Positions 10,677 to 14,243 are shown, numbered from the stretch's first letter. The stretch is 64,000 nucleotides of DNA from Arcobacter suis CECT 7833 (GCF_003544815.1 NZ_CP032100.1:2480001-2544000); one strand, 5' to 3'. Notes: generated by a model from the letters alone, not told the origin. Translations and numbers: made by a program.

Positions 10677-13151
10677 TTATGCCTTTACCACTTTTGCTTT
10701 ATTAAATCTATAAGTATTAAATAAAACATTTGATGCACTGTTTTTCATAAAAGTTGATACATAAGGAATATTTCCTTCAATTTGAATATCAACAAAAGCA
10801 TTTAATACTAACTCTTGATTATTAGCATTTACTTTAACTTTATCACCCTCAGATAATTCAAGTTTTTCAAAAGTTAATTTTGAGAAGAAAATTCCATCTT
10901 GAAAATTCTCTTTAAATTCATGTGAAATTGATGTAAACTCATTAAATTGATTAATTGGATTTGCTTTATAAATCAAAATTTCATCTTCTTCTAAAGTGAT
11001 TTTTTCAACATTATTTTGTTTTATTGTATCTTGAGTCGTCATTTCACTAGAAGTTAATTCATAACCTCTATATTCAACTTGGTCATTTCCAAATCTATTT
11101 GGCAAATCATCAAATGCAACTGATTTATAACCTTTTTCACTTGGAAGTTTTGCTGTATATTCTATTGTATATTCAACATCTTCATTTAAAAGTTCATTTG
11201 CAATTTCATTTAATGTGTAACCATTAAATCCTATTGCTGCATTTGTAGGAATTACTTTTTTATCAATATTTGTAAAAGTTCCCTCTTGTTGATTAAGTGC
11301 TGGAATATCTAAATCTCCATCACCTAAAGCTGATAATTCAAAATCTGCTTTTACATTATAACCCACACTATATCCAGAAACTTCACCAGACAATGTACAG
11401 ATTTGAGAAACACCTAAAGTGTTTGTTTGTGATGGAATAATTACAACATCAAAAGCTGTACACTTATCAATCAAACCGCAAAGTTTTGCTAAATTTTCAG
11501 CATTTGGATGAGTTATTAAATCTTCTCCAATAATTAAAGAAAATGTATCTTTTTTAACTAACATCTCATCAATTAAATCAATAAATTTTTCATCTTTTCC
11601 AAAATCAGCCAATAAAGAAATGTATTCATAAGAAACTTCTTTAGAAACATTTTTTGAAATGATTTTTTTAACTTCTTTTTCTTCGCCAGTTGCTTCATCA
11701 ACAACTATTTCTACAATATTTTCTTTTACAACTTCAATTAAAGTTTTTGTTTTTGTTTCTTTTAAAGAATCAATATATGCTTGAATATCAGTAGGTAAAT
11801 CTTTCCCAAATTTATATAATATAAAATATAAAATTGATTCTTCAACCATCGCATCATGATAGATAAACTCTGTTGTTTTTCCTTTTTTCCCGATTTTTTC
11901 CATAATTGGATCTGCTAGAGGATGAAAATATAAACCCGAACCTTTATTTATAGAAACTGAGTTATTAAAGGCATATCTAGCATTTGGTAAATCAGATTTT
12001 AAATAAGAACCCACAGAAATTACAAAGTTTGCATTATGAACATCTGATAATTTTGAAGAATAAAGTGATTTTCCAGATATTTTAGAATAATTCTTTAAAA
12101 ATTCTTGGTATCTTCTGGCATCTTCATTTACAAGATTAGCTCCCATTTTTTGAGCAATTTTTTGTAAAATAAATGCTTCTTCATTTGTAATATACGAGTT
12201 GAATTTAATATTTTTAGCTTTTTTGAAAGCTTCTAGTGCTTTTGAAAAAGCAATTTTATCTTTTGATTGAACTTTATTTTCAAAATCATAAGCAAATCTT
12301 CCTGCTCCATTTACAGTTGAATAATGAGGTTCACTATTTACTCTATAAATCTTTTTAGTTGCATGATTGTCTATTGATTCATGTTTAATTTCATAATACA
12401 TAAATGCACAATCAGATGAGTGAGGATTTGCTGCTGGTATTTTTTTAAGTTCCCAAGCATTTGAAGTATATTGGAAATCATGTGATACTAAAGCTCCAAC
12501 GGGACAGGCAGATATACACTCTCCACAATTTGTACAGGCATCTGCATCATATCCAATAAGTGATTTATTAAGTTTATTCCACATAGCATAAGCATCTTTT
12601 GGCATCTCATCTTTAAATACTTTTTCAATATTATCAGAATCTCTTTTTACAGTGCTAAGAGCATTTGAACCCACCATATCTTCACATACAGTTACACATC
12701 TTTCACAAACGATACATAAAGCTGGGTCATAATTCATAACTCCCCAATGTTGAACGGGTCTATGAATATCTTTGATAGTATAGTTTTGAGAATCAACTTT
12801 CATATACAAAGAGTAATTTTGCAGTTCACACTCTCCACTTTGATCACAAACACCACATTGTAAAGGATGATTTACATCGTAAACTTCCATCATCGCACGT
12901 CGTTCTTTTGATATATTTTCTGTAATAGTTGAAATATTCATATCAGCTTTTACTTTTGTATTACAGCCATAAACTTGTTTTCCATCTGCTTCTACTAAAC
13001 ATAATCTACAGGCAAGTGTTGGGGAACATCTTGTTAAGTAACATATAGCTGGTACAAATACATCATTTGCTCTTGCCACATTTAAAATAGATTCACCATC
13101 TTTGGCTTGAACTTCTTTACCATCAATTGTTAGTGTAATCATATCGCTCAT
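10677..13151 (-). CDS. nuoG: NADH-quinone oxidoreductase subunit G
   Basis: Large iron-sulfur subunit of the peripheral arm, 824 residues. The N-terminal [2Fe-2S] ligands are C37, C48, C51 and C63. The His-ligated [4Fe-4S] set is H95, C99, C102, C108. Two ferredoxin-type motifs follow, C146-C149-C152-C156 and C206-C209-C212-C216. Residues about 300-824 correspond to the degenerate molybdopterin-oxidoreductase half; no molybdenum ligand is evident. Residues 370-450, 535-575 and 757-824 align with the 268-residue protein encoded immediately upstream. The ATG overlaps the stop of that gene. Confidence 0.95.
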   Translation of the reverse strand: MSDMITLTIDGKEVQAKDGESILNVARANDVFVPAICYLTRCSPTLACRLCLVEADGKQVYGCNTKVKADMNISTITENISKERRAMMEVYDVNHPLQCGVCDQSGECELQNYSLYMKVDSQNYTIKDIHRPVQHWGVMNYDPALCIVCERCVTVCEDMVGSNALSTVKRDSDNIEKVFKDEMPKDAYAMWNKLNKSLIGYDADACTNCGECISACPVGALVSHDFQYTSNAWELKKIPAANPHSSDCAFMYYEIKHESIDNHATKKIYRVNSEPHYSTVNGAGRFAYDFENKVQSKDKIAFSKALEAFKKAKNIKFNSYITNEEAFILQKIAQKMGANLVNEDARRYQEFLKNYSKISGKSLYSSKLSDVHNANFVISVGSYLKSDLPNARYAFNNSVSINKGSGLYFHPLADPIMEKIGKKGKTTEFIYHDAMVEESILYFILYKFGKDLPTDIQAYIDSLKETKTKTLIEVVKENIVEIVVDEATGEEKEVKKIISKNVSKEVSYEYISLLADFGKDEKFIDLIDEMLVKKDTFSLIIGEDLITHPNAENLAKLCGLIDKCTAFDVVIIPSQTNTLGVSQICTLSGEVSGYSVGYNVKADFELSALGDGDLDIPALNQQEGTFTNIDKKVIPTNAAIGFNGYTLNEIANELLNEDVEYTIEYTAKLPSEKGYKSVAFDDLPNRFGNDQVEYRGYELTSSEMTTQDTIKQNNVEKITLEEDEILIYKANPINQFNEFTSISHEFKENFQDGIFFSKLTFEKLELSEGDKVKVNANNQELVLNAFVDIQIEGNIPYVSTFMKNSASNVLFNTYRFNKAKVVKA

Positions 13152-13957
13152 TATGCTTCAACCTTTTCAATTTTTACTTGTTTATAAATATATCCATTAA
13201 AAATATCTTCATCGATTTTTGTTTTTAATATAGCAATAGTTCCATGTAAATTTTCATCGATTTTTAATACTCTTTTGATTTTTTCATTTTTTGATATTAC
13301 AAAAATTTCATTACCATTTGATACTTTTGCTATATTTGCAAAAGTTTGGCTTGCTATTAACTCATCATTTTTTTCATCTATTAATTTATAAACTAAAGTT
13401 CCATTAAATGATTTTAATTCTTCTAACTCTTCTAAATCAAAATCTATGCAAGAATCGATTTTTTGTTCTAATTGTTCATTTAAAACAACTAGATTTAAAT
13501 CTGAATATTTTTTTATTAAAGCAATTAATTGAATGATATTTTCTACTCTTTCGTGATTTATTAAGTCGTTTCCAATAATTAATGTTTTAACTTTTGCTTC
13601 TTGTGAGTTTTCAAAAGCCTCATCAAACTCTTCTTCCCCTGCACTACTTTCAGCACTTATATAACCTAAATCTAAATCATCTAGATAGTTTTTAGTTTTT
13701 TCATCACAATTTGAAGCAAAAGTATTTAATAATAATGCACAAATTCCTTCTTCACTTCCAACTTCATATTTAATAAGTTGAGAATAAAAAGATTTTAAAT
13801 TTGCATTATCAACTGGATGCATATAAATAAATTTTGCATCGTTATTTTTTACAGCTTTTAAAATAGAATTTTTAATTTTTTCATCTTCAATAAAAGTTGC
13901 AAAAGAGATAATAAAATCGCTATTTGAAATTTGTTCTGTTTTATTCATCGTCATCAT
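13151..13957 (-). CDS. NuoF-slot subunit; paralogue of the NuoG C-terminal half
   Basis: This 268-residue protein occupies the nuoF position but has no FMN or NADH glycine-rich motif and no cluster-binding cysteines. It instead resembles the C-terminal half of the neighbouring NuoG. Residues 43-52 (FIYMHPVDNA) match NuoG 406-415 (GLYFHPLADP); 69-80 (EEGICALLLNTF) match 437-448; 126-140 (LIIGNDLINHERVEN) match 539-553 (LIIGEDLITHPNAEN); and 204-268 match 759-824, both ending in a FN-Y-K-K-A pattern. About 190 NuoG residues are missing from the middle. I infer a structural subunit. Campylobacter has a protein of unknown role in this place. It overlaps its neighbours at both ends. Confidence 0.85.
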   Translation of the reverse strand: MMTMNKTEQISNSDFIISFATFIEDEKIKNSILKAVKNNDAKFIYMHPVDNANLKSFYSQLIKYEVGSEEGICALLLNTFASNCDEKTKNYLDDLDLGYISAESSAGEEEFDEAFENSQEAKVKTLIIGNDLINHERVENIIQLIALIKKYSDLNLVVLNEQLEQKIDSCIDFDLEELEELKSFNGTLVYKLIDEKNDELIASQTFANIAKVSNGNEIFVISKNEKIKRVLKIDENLHGTIAILKTKIDEDIFNGYIYKQVKIEKVEA

Positions 13958-14243
13958 CTATTTCACTTTTTTTAGTTTCAATAATTTTTTCTTCTGCTTC
14001 TATTTTTGGTTCAGGTTTTACTTTTTTTATTACTAATGTCCAATCAACTTCATTAAATTTAATTGAGTTCATTAAAGTATAACCCGCTTCATAAATCACA
14101 TCTGCACTTTTTTGGATATTGCTAAAATCTCCAATTTCAAACATAATAATTGCTGTTTCTTCAGGAGCAATTTGTTTATCAAGTAGTTCTAACATTCTTG
14201 TATAGAAGTCGTTTTTCAAATGTCTTAAATCAAATCTTTTCAT
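13941..14243 (-). CDS. NuoE-slot small subunit without cluster ligands
   Basis: A 100-residue protein in the nuoE position. Canonical NuoE is about 160 residues and binds a [2Fe-2S] cluster through four cysteines; this protein contains no cysteine at all, so it cannot carry that cluster. The first 75 residues are a compact alpha/beta segment (ETAIIMFEIGDFSNIQ; DWTLVIKKV), the rest a charged tail ending in five acidic residues. Campylobacter has a comparable protein here. It probably helps form the docking surface for a non-NADH donor such as flavodoxin. It overlaps the next gene by 17 bases. Confidence 0.8.
   Translation of the reverse strand: MKRFDLRHLKNDFYTRMLELLDKQIAPEETAIIMFEIGDFSNIQKSADVIYEAGYTLMNSIKFNEVDWTLVIKKVKPEPKIEAEEKIIETKKSEIDDDDE

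Follow-up and report, generated by a model that had tools for sequence, protein, structure and literature searches.

A compact complex I subunit of Campylobacterota is a homologue of the NuoG C-terminal half and probably descends from a second, tandem NuoG

Gene content of the nuo operon

The window—the whole 64,000-nucleotide stretch of Arcobacter suis CECT 7833 DNA analysed here—carries one complete Campylobacterota-type nuo operon on its minus strand. The interval between nuoD and nuoH holds three genes, encoding NuoX (100 aa), a 268-aa protein at 13151-13957 that we term NuoY, and NuoG (824 aa). The reading frames of the latter two lie exactly where an earlier note on this DNA had placed them, and nuoX shares 17 bases with the beginning of nuoY. 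The features considered in this study are listed below; NuoG1 and NuoG2 denote the first and second NuoG of a fuller version of the operon.

13941..14243, minus strand: NuoX, a PF16514 protein and relative of HP1264 that takes the place of NuoE
13151..13957, minus strand: NuoY, 268 aa, in the NuoF position; probably a reduced NuoG1 (BLASTP, profiles, tree, AlphaFold2 model)
13619..13771, minus strand: NuoY residues 63-113, carrying KYEVGSEEG..ALLL..LDLGYISAESSAGEEE, a signature that NuoG1 and NuoY conserve and NuoG2 has lost
13430..13475, minus strand: approximate site in NuoY at which NuoG1 residues ~527-649 (numbering of the NuoG1 at locus L034) are absent
10677..13151, minus strand: NuoG2, the NuoG of the window operon, 824 aa; N1b, N5 and two ferredoxin-type 4Fe-4S motifs retained, N7 cysteines gone, a divergent domain with an inserted hairpin
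11619..11762, minus strand: NuoG2 residues 464-511, a long beta hairpin (KENIVEIVVDEATGEEKEVKKI) in place of the NuoY/NuoG1 signature

The PF16514 score of the window NuoX (126.7 bits, against a gathering cut-off of 25) places it in the NADH-UOR_E family, and it matches the solved structure of HP1264 (2lxr) at 2.6e-24. With NuoX and a compact second protein at the nuoEF positions, the gene order is that of an epsilon nuoXY complex I, and the pairs Cj1575c/Cj1574c and HP1264/HP1265 share both operon position and neighbours with the window genes. That nuoXY stand in for nuoEF is already known (PMC6682613), and according to reviews the two substitute genes probably couple to flavodoxin or ferredoxin (PMC6682613, PMC4178425). 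HP1264 binds FMN (PMC6269979), and PMC4178425, citing Weerakoon and Olson 2008, credits Cj1574c, probably together with Cj1575c, with mediating the passage of electrons from reduced FldA into the complex. In the texts searched the second gene figures as a replacement without stated ancestry, and it has even been named NuoF (PMC3561388); neither descent from a second NuoG nor the fuller operon presented below is described there. The open-licence literature searched yielded no description of NuoY as a reduced NuoG or of two NuoGs in such operons; one may exist elsewhere.

NuoY as a partial homologue of NuoG

Homology links NuoY to the C-terminal half of NuoG. BLASTP against the window NuoG (E = 4e-07) aligned NuoY residues 5-162 with residues 366-575 and paired LIIGNDLINHERVEN, FIYMHPVDNA and EEGICALLLNTF with the NuoG stretches named in the earlier note, so the collinear motif pairs reported there are real. 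The NCBIfam model of epsilon NuoG (NF006305) recognized NuoY over three stretches with 85.6 bits (E = 2.3e-24), below its curated, full-length equivalog cut-off of 591 bits—which makes NuoY a homologue, yet not a NuoG. A profile-profile comparison, proposed in the same note and run here with hhalign between the NuoY family and the NuoG family of Y-carrying operons, extended over the full length (E = 1.5e-23, 22% identity) and left an internal block of NuoG unmatched. As a control, profiles of NuoG1 and NuoG2 gave NuoY 202 and 66 bits, respectively, with 2000 shuffled sequences reaching at most 9.3 bits; the two profiles matched no window ORF besides NuoY and NuoG. In single-sequence searches, the last ~65 residues of NuoY scored 47 bits against NuoG1 and, taken alone, 0.6 bits against the NuoG of locus L032, near-identical to that of the window. 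The match once reported for this segment therefore holds for NuoG1 and is weak for the NuoG type of the window's own operon.

No significant Pfam domain was detected in NuoY, be it an NADH/FMN or a molybdopterin domain, and the NuoF models Complex1_51K and TIGR01959, which cover the NADH/FMN and N3 domains, did not match it, in keeping with the earlier remark that NADH and FMN motifs are absent. There is no conserved cysteine in the NuoY family, and the N1b, N5, N4 and N7 ligands expected of a NuoG are lacking, as is the entire region.

Sequence searches of the PDB with NuoY alone or with its profile returned nothing significant. An AlphaFold2 model built with 59 NuoG1 relatives as input (pLDDT 86, pTM 0.84) was superposed with VIA-align (Foldseek was also run) on formate dehydrogenase H (1aa6; Z 21.0, rmsd 3.1, 251 residues) and on E. 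coli NuoG (7nz1_G; Z 16.1, rmsd 3.9, 246 residues). With 246-252 of the 268 residues matched, the NuoY chain has part of the NuoG C-terminal (molybdopterin-oxidoreductase) fold, and the superposition suggested in the earlier note thus yielded a related fold. The description of NuoY as a compact paralogue of the molybdopterin-like half of NuoG stands as regards paralogy; its extent has to be narrowed to part of that half, about two structural domains. Set against canonical NuoG/Nqo3, NuoY shares the fold of two C-terminal domains (Z 16.1) but has neither the N1b/N4/N5/N7 ligands nor the N-terminal domains and is about 500 residues shorter. Across 21 diverse NuoYs, E65, D96, G98, E103, E108-110, G186 and F206 are invariant.

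A fuller operon with two NuoG genes

NuoX was searched for in 298 Campylobacterota genomes, with the operon taken from about 50 of them; it is present in 242 of the 298 and in none of 14 control genomes. Two gene orders were seen among the operons read. In the first, X-Y-G2, which is that of the window, NuoX is followed by a NuoY of 231-339 aa and a single NuoG of ~825 aa. In the second, X-F-G1-G2, which is that of most other Campylobacterota families, NuoX is followed usually by a ~670-aa protein and then by a NuoG of ~750 aa (NuoG1). A scan of named genomes, most of them Sulfurovum and relatives, showed that NuoG1 immediately precedes a second NuoG of ~825 aa (NuoG2); this order was confirmed by locus extension wherever the contig reached that far. 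The window's own family includes members with the second order (G134 and G044, with G218 read up to NuoG1). The loci L081-L160 and L161-L182 show full-length NuoG genes paired in tandem within a single complex I operon, both copies equipped with an Fe-S set. Campylobacterota nuo genes also occur on contigs assigned to MAGs of Chloroflexota and Acidimicrobiia (L094, L144), which are probably misbinned.

The window NuoG is the counterpart of NuoG2, and NuoY is a relative of NuoG1. In single-sequence searches, the window NuoY scored mostly 85-167 bits against NuoG1 sequences and about 28 bits against the NuoG2 of the nearest relative's operon, and in hhalign the NuoY family matched NuoG1 with E = 1.4e-65 and 36% identity.

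From its length, the ~670-aa protein had been guessed to be a full NuoG intermediate. It is instead a chimera that combines the N3 iron-sulfur domain of NuoF (PF10589) with Fer4_20 and with a FAD/NAD(P) domain resembling GltD, and it lacks NuoF's NADH/FMN domain; the role of intermediate falls to the gene that follows, NuoG1. The N-terminal part of the chimera has a strong match in 79 of the 298 genomes, and the protein fills the NuoF slot in most environmental Campylobacterota (e.g., L052:540-2585 and L081:4216-6225; 928 aa in L046). Its composition suggests a Stn-like input module for NADPH or ferredoxin on complex I. StnC unites a GltD/NfnB-like NADPH domain and a NuoG-like one in a single protein (PMC10482914); the F-type operons have the parts of StnC/Nfn-ABC spread over the chimera and NuoG1. 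In Campylobacterota, the partner of the GltD domain is the N3 domain of NuoF rather than NuoG, the fusion lies within a complex I operon, and the window's operon has lost it. A further comparison is offered by the second complex I of Nitrospina gracilis, NUO-2, with altered NuoF and NuoG and a proposed ferredoxin coupling (PMC3578206): in contrast to the window's operon, its NuoF2 retains the N3 and NADH-binding domains, and no reduced NuoG paralogue is described.

Division of conserved sites between the two copies

The 72 C-half columns conserved in NuoG1 comprise 37 that NuoY covers and 35 that it does not; the NuoG2 of Y-carrying operons retains 18 of the former and all 35 of the latter (p = 1.8e-7), with a single column lost from both proteins. 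The NuoG2 of F-type operons follows the same pattern (20 of 37 and 35 of 35), which makes the division between the copies older than the reduction. Among the losses of NuoG2 is the signature YEVGSEEGxxALL..LDxGYxSAESxxGEEE, replaced by the long beta hairpin. This hairpin was considered as a partner of NuoY and rejected, since it decays both in the Y-less genome G080 and in some Y-carriers and is kept in Y-less Sulfurovum.

NuoG1 and NuoG2 carry the NuoG cluster ligands (N1b, N5, N4, N7), the window NuoG without those of N7; the N7 cysteines are present in all NuoG1 and in 29% of Y-operon NuoGs. For the model of the window NuoG2 (pLDDT 81), structural matches reach Z 26 with formate dehydrogenases and Z 21-23 with NuoG structures. 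Its residues 146-216 contain two full ferredoxin-type 4Fe-4S motifs (CIVCERC and CTNCGEC), as in [FeFe] hydrogenases; canonical NuoG has one such motif fewer.

Measured against the NuoG1 of L034, NuoYs of all lineages keep about residues 364-526 and 650-769 and miss 1-363 and 527-649. In formate dehydrogenase, domains I and II are discontinuous and enclose domain III, which forms an unbroken segment, while domain IV comes last. Using the domain names of formate dehydrogenase H, NuoY would correspond to domains III and IV, and dropping I and II would take exactly these two cuts—a geometry that would explain why similar endpoints recur.

One reduction or several

A tree of 48 full-length NuoG2 sequences follows the families, and the Y order is scattered over it, requiring 7 changes, at least 5 of them forced by well-supported branches. 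A second tree, combining NuoY and the corresponding segment of NuoG1 (54 rows, 254 columns), has long branches. In it, the window NuoY and its family relatives cluster with NuoG1 of the same family (support 97/97), and the NuoY at L183 in genome G208, from the Sulfurovum family, clusters with NuoG1 of its own genus (100/99). When all NuoYs are constrained to one clade, the log-likelihood drops by 87 units (p-AU 0.00026); after removal of family f2, in which NuoYs shrink and diverge fast, and of three other rows, the single clade has p = 0.02, and f1, f3 and f10 together have p = 0.048. A single NuoY clade is hence rejected overall and weakly in the reduced set. Parallel reduction of NuoG1 to NuoY in several lineages is favoured by these trees as the best reading, although the matter is not closed.

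Deletion ends this similar might instead stem from a single origin followed by recombination: NuoY would have been made once and spread by transfer, with gene conversion by resident NuoG1 mimicking polyphyly. We regard this as unlikely, while granting it some weight. The same two stretches are missing from all NuoYs, the one-clade rejection weakens without the f2 rows, and one transfer is clear—G208 has two Y-type operons, the one at L183 native to its genus and the one at L184 with an f10-type NuoY that was likely acquired horizontally. However, the NuoG2 of Y-carrying operons follows the families, so whole-operon transfer is not general; the NuoYs of f1 and f4 adjoin, with good support, the NuoG1 of their own family or genus; and gene conversion requires NuoG1 and NuoY in one cell, a combination seen at none of the loci examined.

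Proposed origin and function of NuoY

We consider it probable that NuoY is a reduced descendant of NuoG1 that arose after loss of the chimera and serves as a non-redox scaffold or docking subunit. In the fuller operon, X-chimera-G1-G2, the chimera and the cluster-bearing NuoG1 probably pass electrons to NuoG2 and the quinone arm. The lineage of the window, and apparently others separately, would then have lost the chimera, after which NuoG1 would have shed its Fe-S domains and one internal block. The absence of a conserved cysteine and of any recognised flavin or NAD(P) motif leads us to take NuoY as a scaffold on NuoG2; a structural or docking role is most likely, rather than that of a redox carrier. 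NuoY may thus cap NuoG2 and, with NuoX, form a docking surface for reduced flavodoxin or ferredoxin, with electrons entering directly at NuoX or at the NuoG2 clusters, and it was probably kept since the corresponding conserved elements were by then missing from NuoG2. Such a docking role would fit the function reported for Cj1574c (PMC4178425) and FMN binding by HP1264 (PMC6269979); from their position and their NuoX, Cj1574c and HP1265 presumably belong to the NuoY family.

On balance, we lean slightly towards a broader proposal: a tandem NuoG would have been converted repeatedly and independently into a compact, cluster-free subunit by the same two cuts, each time after loss of a NuoF-type input, and the remnant would persist since both copies had divided the structural elements of one NuoG. 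If so, the C-terminal half of a single NuoG is now split across two polypeptides. The complex I of Campylobacter and Helicobacter has long been known to have NuoE and NuoF replaced by two proteins of unclear origin; should their slot subunit be NuoY, the second of these would gain an identity, a fold and an ancestor, electron transport through clusters of its own would be excluded, and NuoX and NuoG2 would be indicated as the site of electron entry. Environmental relatives have a larger module—the NuoF/GltD chimera and two NuoGs—and the natural series from full through half-cut and compact to absent would lend itself to studying the loss of the input arm from a respiratory complex.

It appears rather improbable that NuoY is itself an active electron-transfer subunit, binding a flavin or another cofactor and fed by flavodoxin. 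A mutant study does tie flavodoxin-dependent electron transfer to the slot protein of C. jejuni (PMC4178425), and relatives with the fold of NuoY bind pterin dinucleotides; yet the motif and cysteine survey of NuoY speaks against it, the cluster-holding parts of NuoG1 are the very parts removed, and a docking role accounts equally well for the mutant. That NuoY is a functionless, decaying remnant on its way out, as its loss in G080 and its fast change in f2 might suggest, is very hard to reconcile with reading frames intact throughout, the invariant residues and retention in several families.

We give least credence to the origin proposed in the earlier note, in which NuoF was lost and a tandem duplicate of the C-terminal half of the window NuoG filled its place: NuoY is indeed a NuoG paralogue directly upstream of nuoG and without NuoF motifs, but it lies far nearer to NuoG1 than to the neighbouring NuoG2 (1.4e-65 versus 1.5e-23), is nested inside NuoG1 and shares with it the signature missing from NuoG2. 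Since NuoG1-NuoG2 pairs occur in families that still have the NuoF-derived subunit, the duplication predates the loss rather than following it. Nor was the lost gene a real NuoF, being the chimera with only the N3 domain of NuoF fused to a GltD-like flavoprotein, and NuoY did not move into a vacated place: the slot is where the NuoG1 remnant falls once the preceding gene is gone.

Other operon states and a second complex I

Further operon states were seen. In Sulfurovum sp. AR, the chimera is lost and a 448-aa NuoG1 is kept without its Fe-S half, and in three related Sulfurovum MAGs the operon has neither NuoG1 nor chimera. In G080, nuoX is directly followed by nuoG2 (L186:5031-7699), nuoY is absent and low-complexity sequence replaces the hairpin. 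Within assembly completeness, the rest of these three MAGs and of G080 likewise contains no NuoG1 or NuoY. Some lineages can thus dispense with NuoY, and NuoG2 can work alone, which weighs against the reading preferred here. Three of the four chimera-less Sulfurovum loci were read, and all three have a gene for a thioredoxin-reductase-like flavoprotein between nuoX and the next nuo gene:

L107:6028-7044, opposite strand: flavoprotein gene by nuoX
L134:5904-7055, opposite strand: flavoprotein gene by nuoX
L155:5916-6932, opposite strand: flavoprotein gene by nuoX

Within the window's genus, NuoX is kept in the window's genome and in G291 and is absent from most sampled members (G008, G030, G106, G127, G187, G237, G276 and G297), which probably also lack the epsilon operon. 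S. multivorans has been reported to possess an epsilon complex I besides a standard one (PMC4585668). Canonical NuoE and NuoF survive in the window's genome in a second complex I, where the only PF01512 match lies at 413.9 kb. This second nuo cluster (L194, G000:C1:404500-416500) encodes NuoE, NuoF and a short, 478-aa NuoG, with a citrate synthase-like ORF (428 aa, judged by eye) between nuoF and nuoG.
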